Source of the DNA: Klebsiella pneumoniae
Lineage (GTDB): Bacteria > Myxococcota_A > UBA796 > SXON01
Reading direction: 5' to 3'
Length of the DNA stretch: 64,000 bases
Assembly (NCBI GenBank): GCA_945861635.1
Contig: CAMAWH010000017.1
Location: forward strand, 1 to 64,000
The notes under the pieces are model-generated. The model had not been told where the DNA came from. It did no database searches and saw only the letters and a program-made list of their open reading frames with translations. The translations under genes were made by a program, and so were the position numbers. Positions 58,173 to 63,300 of this stretch are shown one piece after another. Numbering within the stretch: position 1 is the stretch's first letter; each line of letters starts with the position of its first letter.

Positions 58173-59503
58173 CAGTTCCCCTTTTCCTGCAGTTTCTCGA
58201 GCACTCGCTCCATCCGTGACCCTCGACTGCCCTTGACAAGAATCGAGTCTCCGGCGCGGGACGCGAGCCCAGCAGACAACGCCTCAATGTCGGGAAACAC
58301 CTCCGTGCCGGGCCCCGCTGCGGCGGCCATTCGGGGTCCAACAACGAGCACGCGATCGATACCGAGCGAGGCGGCCAGCGCAAGCACATCGGAATGTGCG
58401 CGTGCCTCGCTGCTGCCCAACTCAAGCATATCGCCCAGCACTGCAATTTTCCGGCCGGGCAAGCTGGCCAATGTGCGGAGCGCCGCTGCCATGCTGATCG
58501 GGTTGGCGTTGTATGCATCGTCCAGAACGATCGCGCCCCCCAGGCGTACCACACGGTTTCTCATCCCTTCCGGCTGAAACTTCGCCAGCGCGGGGCCGAG
58601 CAAATCGAGGGGTACATGAAGCGCATAGGCGACGGCGACTGCGGCGGCGGCATTGATGGCGAGGTGCGGCCCCGGCACATCCAGCGTCGCAAGGACCGTG
58701 CCGATGGGCGTTTCGATGCGCAAACGCGTCTGCAGTCGTTCGGAATCCACGCTGACGTCGGTCAACCGAATCGCGCAGTCTGCGGACGTGCCGTACGCCA
58801 CGATTCGGACGCCTTCGGGCGTCGGCATCGCGGCAATACATGGATCGTCCATATTCACGCACAGCACGTCGCCCGCTTGGGCGCCGTCGAACAACTCCTG
58901 CTTGGCGAACCCGACCCCGGCGAGGCTCCCGCACCCCTCGACATGCGCCTCGCCAACGTTCGTAATCAGTCGCACGGAGGGACGGGAAATCTGCTGGAGT
59001 AGTGCAATCTCGCCGAGATGGTTCATGCCGAGCTCGAGAACGACGACGTCAGCGTCAGGGGGCGTTGCAACCAGTGTGAGCGGTAAACCGACGTGATTGT
59101 TGAGATTTCCCTCCGTGTGGTGCACGCGCCCCAGCGAGCGCAAAACATCGACCACCATCACCCGCGTGGACGTTTTGCCGGCGCTGCCCGTTATCGCCAC
59201 GACGGGGCCGGAGAAGGCTCCTCGCGCGCAACGCGCAAGATCTTGAAGCGCGGTGAGCGTGTCCTGAACCCGCACCAATCCTCGGGTCCATCCTGCCGGC
59301 GCATCGGTGACGACGACCCCGGCGCAGCCCGAGGCCTCCGCCACCCCGAGAAAATCGTGGCCGTCGAATCGGTCTCCTTTCAACGCGATAAACCACGTTC
59401 CGGCCCCTACGCGGCGGCTGTCCGTCGTCAGTGCCCCGGCAGGTCCTTCGCAAAGCAGCACGCCACGCGTGGCCCGCGCAATGGCTCGGCCATCGAAAAT
59501 CAT
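58172..59503 (-). CDS. murF: UDP-N-acetylmuramoyl-tripeptide--D-alanyl-D-alanine ligase
   Basis: The 443-residue Mur ligase contains LTTDSRRVGAGTWFIALKGDRFDGHDF, typical of the MurE/MurF N-domain (outline), then VVAITGSAGKTSTRVMV (P-loop), TEGNLNNHVGLPLTLV (specific for MurF) and LDDAYNANPISMAAALRTL. It adds D-Ala-D-Ala made by Ddl. ATG overlaps the murE stop by 4 bp. Confidence 0.96.
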   Translation of the reverse strand: MIFDGRAIARATRGVLLCEGPAGALTTDSRRVGAGTWFIALKGDRFDGHDFLGVAEASGCAGVVVTDAPAGWTRGLVRVQDTLTALQDLARCARGAFSGPVVAITGSAGKTSTRVMVVDVLRSLGRVHHTEGNLNNHVGLPLTLVATPPDADVVVLELGMNHLGEIALLQQISRPSVRLITNVGEAHVEGCGSLAGVGFAKQELFDGAQAGDVLCVNMDDPCIAAMPTPEGVRIVAYGTSADCAIRLTDVSVDSERLQTRLRIETPIGTVLATLDVPGPHLAINAAAAVAVAYALHVPLDLLGPALAKFQPEGMRNRVVRLGGAIVLDDAYNANPISMAAALRTLASLPGRKIAVLGDMLELGSSEARAHSDVLALAASLGIDRVLVVGPRMAAAAGPGTEVFPDIEALSAGLASRAGDSILVKGSRGSRMERVLEKLQEKGN

Positions 59504-60924
59504 GCCGCCGCCAACGCCGCCGCGGCGACGGAGCGATCATCAAATGGAATTTTCTGGCCCGCGATTTCCTGCGTGGTCTCATGGCCCTTGCCGGCAATGA
59601 GCACGATGTCTCCTGATCGGGCCAGGGCGATCGCGCGCTCGACGGCCCGAGCGCGGTCCAACTCGACGACGTGGGGCGCGTCGCCGATGCCCGGCAAAAT
59701 ATCGTTCACAATGGCGACGGGATCCTCCCCGCGCGGGTTGTCCGACGTGACGATCGAGAGGTCGCTTCCAGTGGCACAGGCCCTACCCATGAGGGCCCGC
59801 TTTCCGCGGTCCCGGTCACCGCCACATCCGAAAACGGTGATAATTCTTCCCGATCCCAGCGTTCGGAGCGTCGCCAGCACGCGCGCCAGTGCGTCGTCGG
59901 TGTGCGCATAGTCCACGAGCACGGTGAATCCGCGCGTGTTGGGAACCGGCTCCAGCCGGCCCGGTACGCAACGCAACGTGGCCATTCCCTCCGCGCAGGC
60001 GTCTAAAGGAACACCCGCCGCCAATGCCGCTCCCAGGGCGCCGAGCGCGTTCTCGACCGAGTGCGCACCGAGGAGCTGGATTCGCCCATCGAACGCTCCT
60101 TCGGGGGTGCGAAATCGCGCCGTCGCACCCGCCGCCGAGAGGTGCGTGTTTTCAGCGTCGACATCCGATCCGCTGAACCACCAGATTGGCCGATTTGTCG
60201 GCGCCATCCTCGCGGATGCCGGGTCGCGCGCGTTCAATACCGCCGTCCCGGCGAGACACTCGTGAAAAAGCCTCGCCTTGGCCGCCGCGTACGCGTCCAT
60301 GGTCCCATGATAATCCAGGTGATCCCTAGTTAGATTTGTAAAAACAGCGGAACGGAACGGAATCGCATCACAACGGTGGGCCGCGAGGCCGATGGAGGAC
60401 GTCTCCATCGCCACGAGCCGGCACCCGGCATCGCGCATTTCAGCCAGAAGTTCCTGAATGACCGGCGCGGAAGGCGTCGTGTGGGTCGATGGCCGGGCCA
60501 CGCCGTCGATGAAATGCCCGGTGGTGCCGATGACCCCCACCTTCCAGCCCGCCGCTCTCGCCATCGCCTCAATCAAATAGGTCGTGCTGGTCTTGCCGTT
60601 CGTGCCGGTCACGGCCACAACGGCCATCGCCGCACCCGGGTCACCGAGCCGGCGCGCGGCAAGAATCGGCAGCGCCGATCGCGTGTCGTCGACGGTTACA
60701 ACCGCGACCCCGGCGGGGGCCTCGACCGCACGTTCAACGACGACGGCGGCCGCGTGCTTCAGCGTTGGCACACGATCGTGGCCATCGACGTGTGCGCCGT
60801 GAATCGCGACGAAAACATCCCCCTCCTGCACCTCATCATCGCGATCCGTCACCCGTCCCGCGCGCACGTCGGCCCCGGACATACGCGCAGCGGTCAGCGG
60901 AAGGAGGAGGTGGGAGAGGAGCAT
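59500..60924 (-). CDS. murE: UDP-MurNAc-L-Ala-D-Glu--meso-diaminopimelate ligase
   Basis: The 474-residue Mur ligase begins MLLSHLLLPLTAARMSGADV, then GDVFVAIHGAHVDGHD, VAVTGTNGKTSTTYLIEAM (P-loop), METSSIGLAAHR and FTNLTRDHLDYHGTMDAY. The signature DNPRGEDP has the Arg associated with meso-diaminopimelate addition in place of lysine. ATG 60924 fits the family N-terminus. It has no clear ribosome site: the upstream sequence is a C/T-rich strand just after a large inverted repeat. The open frame continues to 61149 through that element but is Pro-rich and not conserved. Confidence 0.95.
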   Translation of the reverse strand: MLLSHLLLPLTAARMSGADVRAGRVTDRDDEVQEGDVFVAIHGAHVDGHDRVPTLKHAAAVVVERAVEAPAGVAVVTVDDTRSALPILAARRLGDPGAAMAVVAVTGTNGKTSTTYLIEAMARAAGWKVGVIGTTGHFIDGVARPSTHTTPSAPVIQELLAEMRDAGCRLVAMETSSIGLAAHRCDAIPFRSAVFTNLTRDHLDYHGTMDAYAAAKARLFHECLAGTAVLNARDPASARMAPTNRPIWWFSGSDVDAENTHLSAAGATARFRTPEGAFDGRIQLLGAHSVENALGALGAALAAGVPLDACAEGMATLRCVPGRLEPVPNTRGFTVLVDYAHTDDALARVLATLRTLGSGRIITVFGCGGDRDRGKRALMGRACATGSDLSIVTSDNPRGEDPVAIVNDILPGIGDAPHVVELDRARAVERAIALARSGDIVLIAGKGHETTQEIAGQKIPFDDRSVAAAALAAA

Positions 60925-60943
60925 GGCGGGAGGGCAGGAGGGA

Positions 60944-61147
60944 GTCTTCAGGATGGGCGTGCCCAGCAGGGTGCAGAGGAAGTTCGACTGCGGAGCGACG
61001 GGACGTTGGGGTAGGGTGCGGGGCGGCGGTGGCGGCCCCAGGGGGGGGTGGACACACCCTTGGGTAGGAGGCCTTAAAAGTCCAATCGTGCGGGCCGGCG
61101 GAGAACCGGCCCTCGGGCTCCGCGTGTGGCGCGCCCATCCTGAAGAC
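60944..61147. repeat. 204-bp element with 20-bp terminal inverted repeats between ftsI and murE
   Basis: Bases 60944-60963 (starting gtcttcaggatgggcg) and 61128-61147 (ending cgcccatcctgaagac) are reverse complements over 20 positions with one mismatch. The 164 bases between hold further inverted repeats: a 7-bp stem at 61092-61112 (gggccgg/ccggccc) and gggtg/caccc around 61047-61060, plus G/C homopolymer runs. In the minus-strand mRNA it would fold into a long closing stem ending 20 bases before the murE ATG. It is either a structured leader RNA or a remnant of a miniature inverted-repeat element. No target duplication is evident. Confidence 0.75.
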
Positions 61148-61173
61148 ATACGGAGATGAAAAAGAAGGAAGAA

Positions 61174-63300
61174 TCAGTTGAAGCGAAGCGTCACCCGCTC
61201 GCCTGGGCCCACGTGGACCCCCGCGACGGGATCTTGCGAAACCAGGCGGCCAGCGCCTTCAAGAACGAGCTCGATGCCCGACGATTGCAACGCAGCAACG
61301 GCGCTTCGCATCGACCGGCCGCCGAGATCCGGCAGGATCCAGCCCCCGGATCCGTCGGCTCGGACCTCGATTGGAGCACGTGGCTCCGACAACACAAGCG
61401 TCGGCTTGGGTTTGTGTACGGATGGGGGTGGCGCGGGTGCGCCCTCCACCACAACGGCCGGTGCGTCCGGCACATCTTCCGGCGGAACGGACAAATAGCG
61501 CATCGTGAACTCGCCGATCTCCGCGAAGACAGGAGCGGCCACGATCCCCCCGTATTTGGACCCAATGGTAGGGGTGTCCACCATCACCGCGACAGCGATC
61601 TCCGGCCGGCCAGCCGGCAGAAAACCGACGAACGATGAAACACGTTTTGTCGGGCTATAAATACCATTTTCTACCTTCTGCGCGGTTCCCGTCTTCCCTG
61701 CCACCCGGTATCCCTCCACGCGGGCCCGCGTTCCCGTGCCGCCCTCCTCCGTCACGGTTTCCATCATGCTCACGATAGCGGAGGCCGTATCGGGGGAGAT
61801 CACCCGCCGGTCTACCCTCGCTTCCCGCGCGACCTCGACCTCTCCGTAGCGATCCAGCACGGCATCCACGATCCGCGGCATCATCCGCTCGCCGCCATTT
61901 GCGATGGTGGCAACGGCTGAAACCAACTGAATGGGAGACGCCGTTACGCCCTGGCCAAACGACGTGGTCGCCAATTCGATGGGGCGAATGGTGTCCGGCC
62001 GCCGGATCGACCCGGCAACCTCGCCGGGCAGGGAGAGGCCGGTCGCGCGCGCAAATCCGAAATTCTTCAGGTACGCAATCGTCCGATCCGCGCCCAACAT
62101 GAATCCAAGTTTGGCGGCACCGATATTCGACGAATATTTGATCACGTCCGTTACCGAAATAACTCCTTTAGGGTGATCATCCTTGATGATTCGGCCACTG
62201 ACCGTCCAATGGCCGACCTCGCAGTCAACCATTGTTTCCGGTGTTACCAGCCCCTCTTCCAGAGCCGCCGCCGCAATGAATGGCTTAAAAACCGAGCCAG
62301 GTTCGATTTGGTCCATCGCCGGGCGATTCTTGAACAATTCCTGCTGCACGCGCGATGCGCCGTCGTTCGGATTTCCGCCCGGCCGCGTCGCCATCGCCAG
62401 GATGGACCCCGTACGCACGTCCATGACGACGGCCATCGCCGCCTCCGGCATGCTGCTGATCATCACCTTGTCGAGGGCGCTTTCCGCGGCATGCTGAATG
62501 GCGGCGTCGATGGTCAGTCGGACCGAGTGGCCGGACCGTGCCAGCCGGGTCTCATCGACGCCCGCCTCCACGGAGCGTCCCTTCCGATCCATGCCCTGCA
62601 TGATTCGATAGGTGTCGCCTGCCAATTCTTTCTCAAGGAGTTTTTCGATCCCGGCGGCCCCGGCGTCCGTGGAGTCCGTGTACCCAAGCAAAGGGGCCGC
62701 CATGTCGCGCCCCGGGTACATGCGTACCGCCTCCTCCCGCTTGAACAACCACGGCGCTTCCTTCCGATGTTCACGACGTGTAAGCTCCCGAACGTCGGCA
62801 ACAAGCGCGTCGACCGCAACCGGTTCCAGCGAGTCCCCGAGCTTGAGCTCCACCAACTTGCGACCATCGGGGCGCACCGCAAACCGATCGCGAATCCAAC
62901 GCTCGGACTTGCCGCTCGCCGCCGACAGCCGGCCGATGTACACATCGAGGTCGCCCTCCCGCGCGGTGCTAGGGTTGGCGTACAACGTGGGAAGATCGAC
63001 AGTCGAGGCGAGCAGCCGCCCCTTGGCGTCAACGATCGACCCACGCCGCCCGTGCATTTCGACGGTGCGGTCGTAGAGATCCTGCCCCGCCGCCGCGAGC
63101 CGGGAATCCGGCCACAGCATGAGCTGTCCCGCGCGCGCCCCCAGAAACACCAGAAAAAACAGGATGCCGCCGAGGACGAGCTTCGACCGAAGTCGGCTCT
63201 CCATCACCAAAGCCTGCTCCTCCGCCGGCCCGCGACGGCGCTCGGGGGGCAGACGAAGACGCGCGTGCGCCTTCCGGGTGCGGGGCGACGACGCCTTCAC
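61174..63300 (-). CDS. ftsI: Penicillin-binding protein FtsI-like transpeptidase with PASTA domain
   Basis: The 708-residue protein has an N-terminal membrane helix (SKLVLGGILFFLVFLGARAG, about 39-58), a pedestal domain starting RRGSIVDAKGRLLA, and a transpeptidase domain with S336xxK (GSVFKP), SSN at 390-392 and KTGTA at about 528. A C-terminal PASTA domain follows (LPDLGGRSMRSAVAALQSSGIELVL...GPGERVTLRF). It crosslinks septal peptidoglycan with FtsW. The PASTA domain, common in Firmicutes and some deltaproteobacteria, is absent from E. coli FtsI. ATG overlaps the ftsL stop by 4 bp. Confidence 0.95.
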   Translation of the reverse strand: MKASSPRTRKAHARLRLPPERRRGPAEEQALVMESRLRSKLVLGGILFFLVFLGARAGQLMLWPDSRLAAAGQDLYDRTVEMHGRRGSIVDAKGRLLASTVDLPTLYANPSTAREGDLDVYIGRLSAASGKSERWIRDRFAVRPDGRKLVELKLGDSLEPVAVDALVADVRELTRREHRKEAPWLFKREEAVRMYPGRDMAAPLLGYTDSTDAGAAGIEKLLEKELAGDTYRIMQGMDRKGRSVEAGVDETRLARSGHSVRLTIDAAIQHAAESALDKVMISSMPEAAMAVVMDVRTGSILAMATRPGGNPNDGASRVQQELFKNRPAMDQIEPGSVFKPFIAAAALEEGLVTPETMVDCEVGHWTVSGRIIKDDHPKGVISVTDVIKYSSNIGAAKLGFMLGADRTIAYLKNFGFARATGLSLPGEVAGSIRRPDTIRPIELATTSFGQGVTASPIQLVSAVATIANGGERMMPRIVDAVLDRYGEVEVAREARVDRRVISPDTASAIVSMMETVTEEGGTGTRARVEGYRVAGKTGTAQKVENGIYSPTKRVSSFVGFLPAGRPEIAVAVMVDTPTIGSKYGGIVAAPVFAEIGEFTMRYLSVPPEDVPDAPAVVVEGAPAPPPSVHKPKPTLVLSEPRAPIEVRADGSGGWILPDLGGRSMRSAVAALQSSGIELVLEGAGRLVSQDPVAGVHVGPGERVTLRFN

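Follow-up and report, generated by a model that had tools for sequence, protein, structure and literature searches.

What occupies the one large gap of a dcw operon, and which of the two genes beside it does it serve? Gene order and tight coupling in the dcw cluster rank among the most conserved features of bacterial genomes, and in the window studied here (the whole 64-kb stretch of DNA that was analysed) the only large gap of the operon, 249 nt between ftsI and murE, is occupied by an inverted repeat (Table 1). Both the gap and its 20-bp repeats had been described in the initial annotation; the gap coordinates agree, and a repeat search recovered the arms in the same place, 164 nt apart and complementary at 19 of 20 positions (95%). 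No second pair of separate arms lying at most 900 nt apart, both at least 20 nt long and more than 85% complementary, was found in the window. The remark that murE has no visible ribosome site was likewise borne out, no Shine-Dalgarno motif being found before the window's murE.

The murE frame is open upstream as far as an ATG at 61149 (549-aa ORF), and a murE start upstream of the element had been raised at the outset as a possible alternative. The relatives contradict such an N-terminal extension of MurE: stops in the gap close the murE frame in many of them, the core lengths represent all three frames, and none of these is free of stops in every relative. At the level of RNA, 231 nt of the minus strand have a predicted fold of -101.6 kcal/mol, compared with -75.9 +/- 4.6 for shuffled sequences (z -5.6; 0/200 as good), and the antisense strand of the element has a lower predicted folding energy than the sense strand. 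Read 5' to 3' in the RNA, the order of parts is the 5' linker (UCUUUYYCAYCY), P1, P2 (GCGG/CCGC), the P3 hairpin, the variable P4/P5 branch, P2', P1', a C-rich tract and the murE AUG.

Table 1. Features of the ftsI-murE junction in window coordinates, listed in the direction of transcription.
Feature	Position	Strand	Basis or remark
ftsI	61174..63300	(-)	PBP3 type, PASTA-like C-terminal region; ORF and tblastn relatives
ftsI stop codon	61174-61176	(-)	
5' linker, pyrimidine-rich, G-poor, TTCTTCCTTCTTTTTCATCTCCGTAT	61148..61173	(-)	C.39, T.41, G.08 across 21 relatives
Motif UCUUUYYCAYCY just past the ftsI stop, here TCTTTTTCATCT	61154..61165	(-)	Motif discovery, 47 gaps
P1 5' arm, closing stem	61128..61147	(-)	Inverted repeat
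P2 5' strand GCGGAG	61118..61123	(-)	Helix with 88% of cells paired
P3 hairpin	61092..61112	(-)	8/8 pairs with changes on both sides
P3 loop UCUCC	61100-61104	(-)	One base off the UCCCC pentaloop of most relatives
P4/P5 branch, of varying length and sequence	60996..61091	(-)	RNAalifold; weaker support, helices 5-9 with 63-83% of cells paired
P2 3' strand CTCCGC, then AG	60990..60995	(-)	Near-invariant CCGC columns in alignment
P1 3' arm	60944..60963	(-)	Inverted repeat; covariation
3' linker, C-rich tract without Shine-Dalgarno before murE, TCCCTCCTGCCCTCCCGCC	60925..60943	(-)	C.66, G.10 across 21 relatives
murE	59500..60924	(-)	ATG 60922-60924; start position kept among relatives

For comparison, murE and its upstream region were collected from the same family (f1) and from the order; the locus could be read in 21 f1 genomes. 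A large ftsI-murE gap of about 210-370 nt is present in all 21, and these gaps share a pyrimidine-rich start, an arm (e.g. GTCTTCCGGGTGGG) and, at the end, that arm's own complement (e.g. CCCACCCGGAAGAC). Arm sequences vary among genera, the 21 genomes having 17 different sequences for the 5' arm and 18 for the 3' arm, while each arm remains complementary to its own partner.

The 21 cores were aligned with MAFFT, blind to structure, and folded with RNAalifold, and 100 null alignments preserving tree, substitution count and gaps served as reference. The consensus fold reaches -105 kcal/mol against -29.6 +/- 4.9 for the null alignments (minimum -42.4; z -15.5), and 85.6% of cells are paired under the structure, compared with 72.9% in shuffles and 42-48% when it is slid by 1-3 columns. 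Both sides have changed in 33 of the 48 pairs, with 120 double-change cells against 39 in shuffles. Own P1 arms pair at 14.3/15 versus 11.2 for swapped arms (0/20000 permutations as good), and the outer eight pairs of P1 are 100% paired in the 21 genomes, seven of them having changed on both sides. Under a strict tree-based per-pair covariation test no single pair was significant (best E 0.06), because only 21 sequences were available, and aggregate tests were therefore used. By these tests folding and covariation of the gap, which had been proposed as checks on the element, are both supported: the sequence evolves fast and the structure is retained.

The strand of the functional RNA can be read from the wobble pairs. 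In the sense-strand reading the outer 14 pairs of P1 contain 19 G-U against 1 A-C, and P2 and P3 lean the same way. The opposite asymmetry would be expected of an antisense RNA, and the functional RNA is therefore that of the ftsI/murE strand. An RNA from the antisense strand, which has the lower folding energy and would display GGGGA loops resembling CsrA sites, is ruled out by this asymmetry. The element is thus almost certainly a conserved structured sense-strand RNA, and its best reading is as a previously undescribed element and a candidate new class of intercistronic regulatory RNA.

We examined the distribution of the element with covariance models. The source genome (5.6 Mb, uncultivated) holds one copy, and a model built from all 21 elements gave one match per genome, confined to f1 among 63 genomes of the order (barring one marginal match, E 0.09) and among 188 sampled genomes of the phylum. 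As matches to the 21 sequences used for training are not independent, these results arise partly by construction, and a second model was hence built from genus g3 alone. This model found the exact place in g1 (the source genome, E 1.3e-9), g4 (1e-9), g6 (6e-8 and 4e-6) and g2 (2e-5), with no match elsewhere below E 0.03; at E <= 1 it missed g5 and some members of g2 and g6, which makes it a partial test. Its weak matches in L187 (f6), L178 (f3) and L188 (f4) fall in the ftsI-murE gap and on the sense strand. A search of relatives at the DNA level returned short matches only, including one within the G007 murE leader. The search for further copies of the repeat thus yielded one per genome, always at the same junction, and the element is inherited vertically. 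A miniature mobile element, the second reading offered initially, would account for the terminal inverted repeat itself, but a single copy at a fixed ftsI-murE position in all genomes searched, with terminal arms that differ among relatives through compensating changes rather than being conserved, leaves that reading a negligible probability.

The host order comprises little-studied lake bacteria, and the sample names of four family members look lake-like; the next named relatives by MurE are mixed and include several Myxococcales MAGs. On MurE similarity and genome size, the source genome is provisionally placed in Myxococcota. Long ftsI-murE gaps (167-733 nt) occur among members of each of the order's six families. 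Outside the order, ten sampled genomes mostly overlap murE and ftsI (ATGA/GTGA) or separate them by no more than about 20 nt, the exception being one genome with a gap of about 150 nt whose stability is not unusual. The gap is small or absent in two genomes of the order, L151 and L184, and the element can therefore be lost. The gap sequences of the other five families are not globally alignable to the f1 element. All the families probably inherited the element from a single ancestor. The gaps of f5 (L024, L025, L026, L185) and f4 (L144, L183) are 570-733 nt long with very stable predicted folds, and their additional hairpins past the closing domain possibly form part of a large multi-domain RNA. 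In one genome (G035:C273 10810-11134) the MurE match is split into residues 1-99 and 96-475, the pieces lying about 320 nt apart, which suggests an insertion or an assembly fault inside murE. In the rrn leaders of the order (L164-L172) boxA is strongly conserved: it is mostly GGTCTTTGAAAA, lies 66-187 nt ahead of 16S and is present in every leader except that of L168.

What the families have in common is a loop. In most f1 genomes the P3 loop is UCCCC although all stem pairs vary, and the window's own loop, UCUCC, departs from this consensus. A UCCCC pentaloop hairpin occurs in 25 of 47 gaps and in all six families, against a mean of 0.63 and a maximum of 3 in shuffles; the next commonest pentaloop has 4 occurrences. 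The wider class of C-rich loops is present in 37 of the 47 gaps, compared with 6.2 in shuffles. The stems that carry UCCCC differ among families, as in GCUAUC-UCCCC-GAUAGC (f6), GGUGCC-UCCCC-GGUACC (f5), GGGUGG-UCCCC-CCACCC (f4), CCCGAC-UCCCC-GUCGGG (f3) and CGGCA-UCCCC-UGUCG (f2). The P4/P5 branch of relatives often has a second C-rich loop, and L011 and L030 hold two UCCCC pentaloops in one element. Among 414 hairpins with at least 7 pairs and a 5-nt loop in 384 kb of the source genome, none has a UCCCC loop. A pseudoknot between the UCCCC loop and a GGGG in P4 was considered and rejected, those Gs being paired locally and absent from some genomes. The pattern also speaks against a classical metabolite riboswitch: junction nucleotides are not strictly conserved, and the near-invariant columns are mostly stems or the C loop.

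The linkers on either side of P1 are also distinctive. UCUUU lies within the first 50 nt in 23 of 35 gaps, against 3.9 in shuffles, and the unpaired core across the 21 relatives is 56% C and 7% G. In all 21 family members murE lacks a Shine-Dalgarno sequence, whereas by a rough gene caller 14 of 27 predicted genes in the window with a gap above 25 nt do have one, and the upstream regions of other window genes contain C and G equally (.33 and.32). No intrinsic terminator (GC hairpin and U run) was found between 60800 and 61300, and no promoter within the window's element.

Evidence as to which gene the element serves comes from three f3 genomes, G036, G048 and G050 (L148, L149, L150), in which murE is detached from ftsI. 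All three detached leaders retain the C-rich tract without Shine-Dalgarno, and that of G048 has, downstream of a promoter-like site, the hairpin GCGAC-UCCCC-GUCGC; the leaders of G036 and G050 showed no UCCCC pentaloop. As a detached murE keeps these signals, they travel with murE, and for this reason we call the element a murE leader and not a 3' element of ftsI, an assignment that depends mainly on one genome (G048). Several f3 gaps (L177, L181, L189, L029, L030) contain promoter-like sites near murE, e.g. TTGAAT-18-TAGAAT and TTGATG-17-TAAGAT, and in f3 murE may have acquired a promoter of its own; no such sites were seen in f1 gaps.

Comparison with known systems yielded resemblances rather than matches. 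The Rfam 15 covariance models gave no match at E <= 5 in 60700-61400, and in 14 related loci only two chance-level matches, both inside murE and none in the gap. A literature search, with small coverage of subscription papers, found no structured RNA at ftsI-murE. The sX13 RNA of Xanthomonas, a GC-rich bacterium without a consensus ribosome-binding site, has three stems whose apical loops are C-rich (4C/5C) and act on G-rich motifs near starts (PMC3771888). The element resembles sX13, RNAIII and the Rsa RNAs of S. aureus, and LhrC of Listeria in showing C-rich loops on compact hairpins; those are stand-alone transcripts, whereas here the domain is closed, lies inside an operon and has a fixed UCCCC pentaloop, with no Rfam match to them. 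UpsM, a structured RNA of Rhodobacter sphaeroides that comes from the 5' leader of the dcw operon, is likewise long, untranslated and family-restricted (PMC5089854). It differs in its position ahead of mraZ and in ending at an intrinsic terminator; the present element is found within the operon, before murE, and has no terminator. The mraW RNA motif, too, sits in a peptidoglycan operon. It is a candidate structured RNA of Actinomycetales (RF01746; PMC2864571). Unlike that motif, which lies upstream of mraW in another phylum, the element precedes murE, and there is no covariance-model match. The antitermination RNAs EAR, put and nut are structured and belong to long operons, lying within or ahead of them (EAR is located between epsB and epsC); the likeness in boxA is limited to UCUUU, again without an Rfam match.

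Taken together, sequence comparison suggests that the structured RNA is probably a leader for murE and the mur genes that follow, which would uncouple murE from ftsI and be read via its C-rich loop or loops. That it functions in control and is not a jumping gene is very probable, and on balance we expect it to act in cis on murE. The closing stem P1 would bring the two single-stranded linkers together and hold a multibranched domain, of which P3, the first hairpin, would present the UCCCC-type loop. In this order the element replaces the 4-nt overlap of stop and start codons through which murE is coupled to ftsI in other parts of the phylum. Regulation, the direction of its effect and the partner are what we infer: the element may uncouple murE translation, transcript processing or both from ftsI and may set the output of a murE start that lacks a Shine-Dalgarno sequence and is preceded by a C tract, and a trans partner, either a C-binding protein (KH/S1-type) or a G-rich RNA, could recognise the UCCCC loop. 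The regulatory leader of the initial annotation therefore survives in kind, as a conserved folded sense-strand RNA directly upstream of a murE without Shine-Dalgarno, but not in its proposed occlusion of the start: 19 nt separate P1 from the ATG, and they form a C-rich, G-poor tract that is unpaired in predicted folds.

Among other explanations, which we rank in the order trans-acting processed RNA, elongation control and mRNA stability, all behind a cis-acting leader, it is rather unlikely that the domain is cut from the operon transcript, with P1 as an RNase III/E boundary, to become a UTR-derived RNA whose C-rich loops pair with G-rich ribosome-binding sites elsewhere. The UCCCC pentaloops, at times two per element, would suit such a role, C-rich loops acting on G-rich motifs near starts have a precedent in sX13 (PMC3771888), and UpsM shows that dcw operons can yield RNAs of this kind (PMC5089854); against this, the loop of the window's own copy is UCUCC, synteny keeps the element next to murE, in G048 it accompanies a detached murE, and no promoter or terminator of its own was seen in f1. 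An element tuning transcriptional readthrough into the mur genes, either by loading Nus factors on a boxA-like UCUUU and hairpins or by providing a Rho site in C-rich, G-poor strands, strikes us as improbable. UCUUUYYCA does lie directly past the ftsI stop (e.g. CGCTCTTTTTCA in L144), the linkers are C-rich and G-poor and a long essential operon follows, but the rrn boxA of the same order shares only the UCUUU core with it, the linker motif is weak in several genomes, and Rho sites are normally unstructured where this gap is highly structured.

Intercistronic hairpins are known for roles in mRNA processing and stability, and P1 could be a ribonuclease site, with hairpins protecting the mur part of the transcript so that ftsI and mur levels differ. 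A long perfect stem exactly at the boundary of two gene groups, with structure kept while sequence evolves fast, would fit such an element; we hold it the least probable of these three, as it leaves a fixed UCCCC loop amid freely changing stems unexplained. A more novel reading, that of a new kind of translation-entry RNA in bacteria, is that the closed structured domain with its fixed UCCCC loop, the C-rich tract and the AUG without Shine-Dalgarno together recruit ribosomes, or a dedicated RNA-binding protein, so that murE starts independently of ftsI. We regard this form of translation entry as speculative and rather unlikely; if true, it would have arisen a single time in the order, replacing stop-start coupling, and division and cell-wall precursor synthesis would be balanced chiefly through it.

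How division and precursor enzymes are balanced when both are made from one operon is a long-standing question, for which the UCCCC loop and P1 offer a short and testable handle. An RNA that replaces ftsI-murE coupling across most of an order, retaining its fold and a single loop sequence although nearly all its other letters have changed, points to control at the RNA level where the division proteins meet the precursor enzymes.
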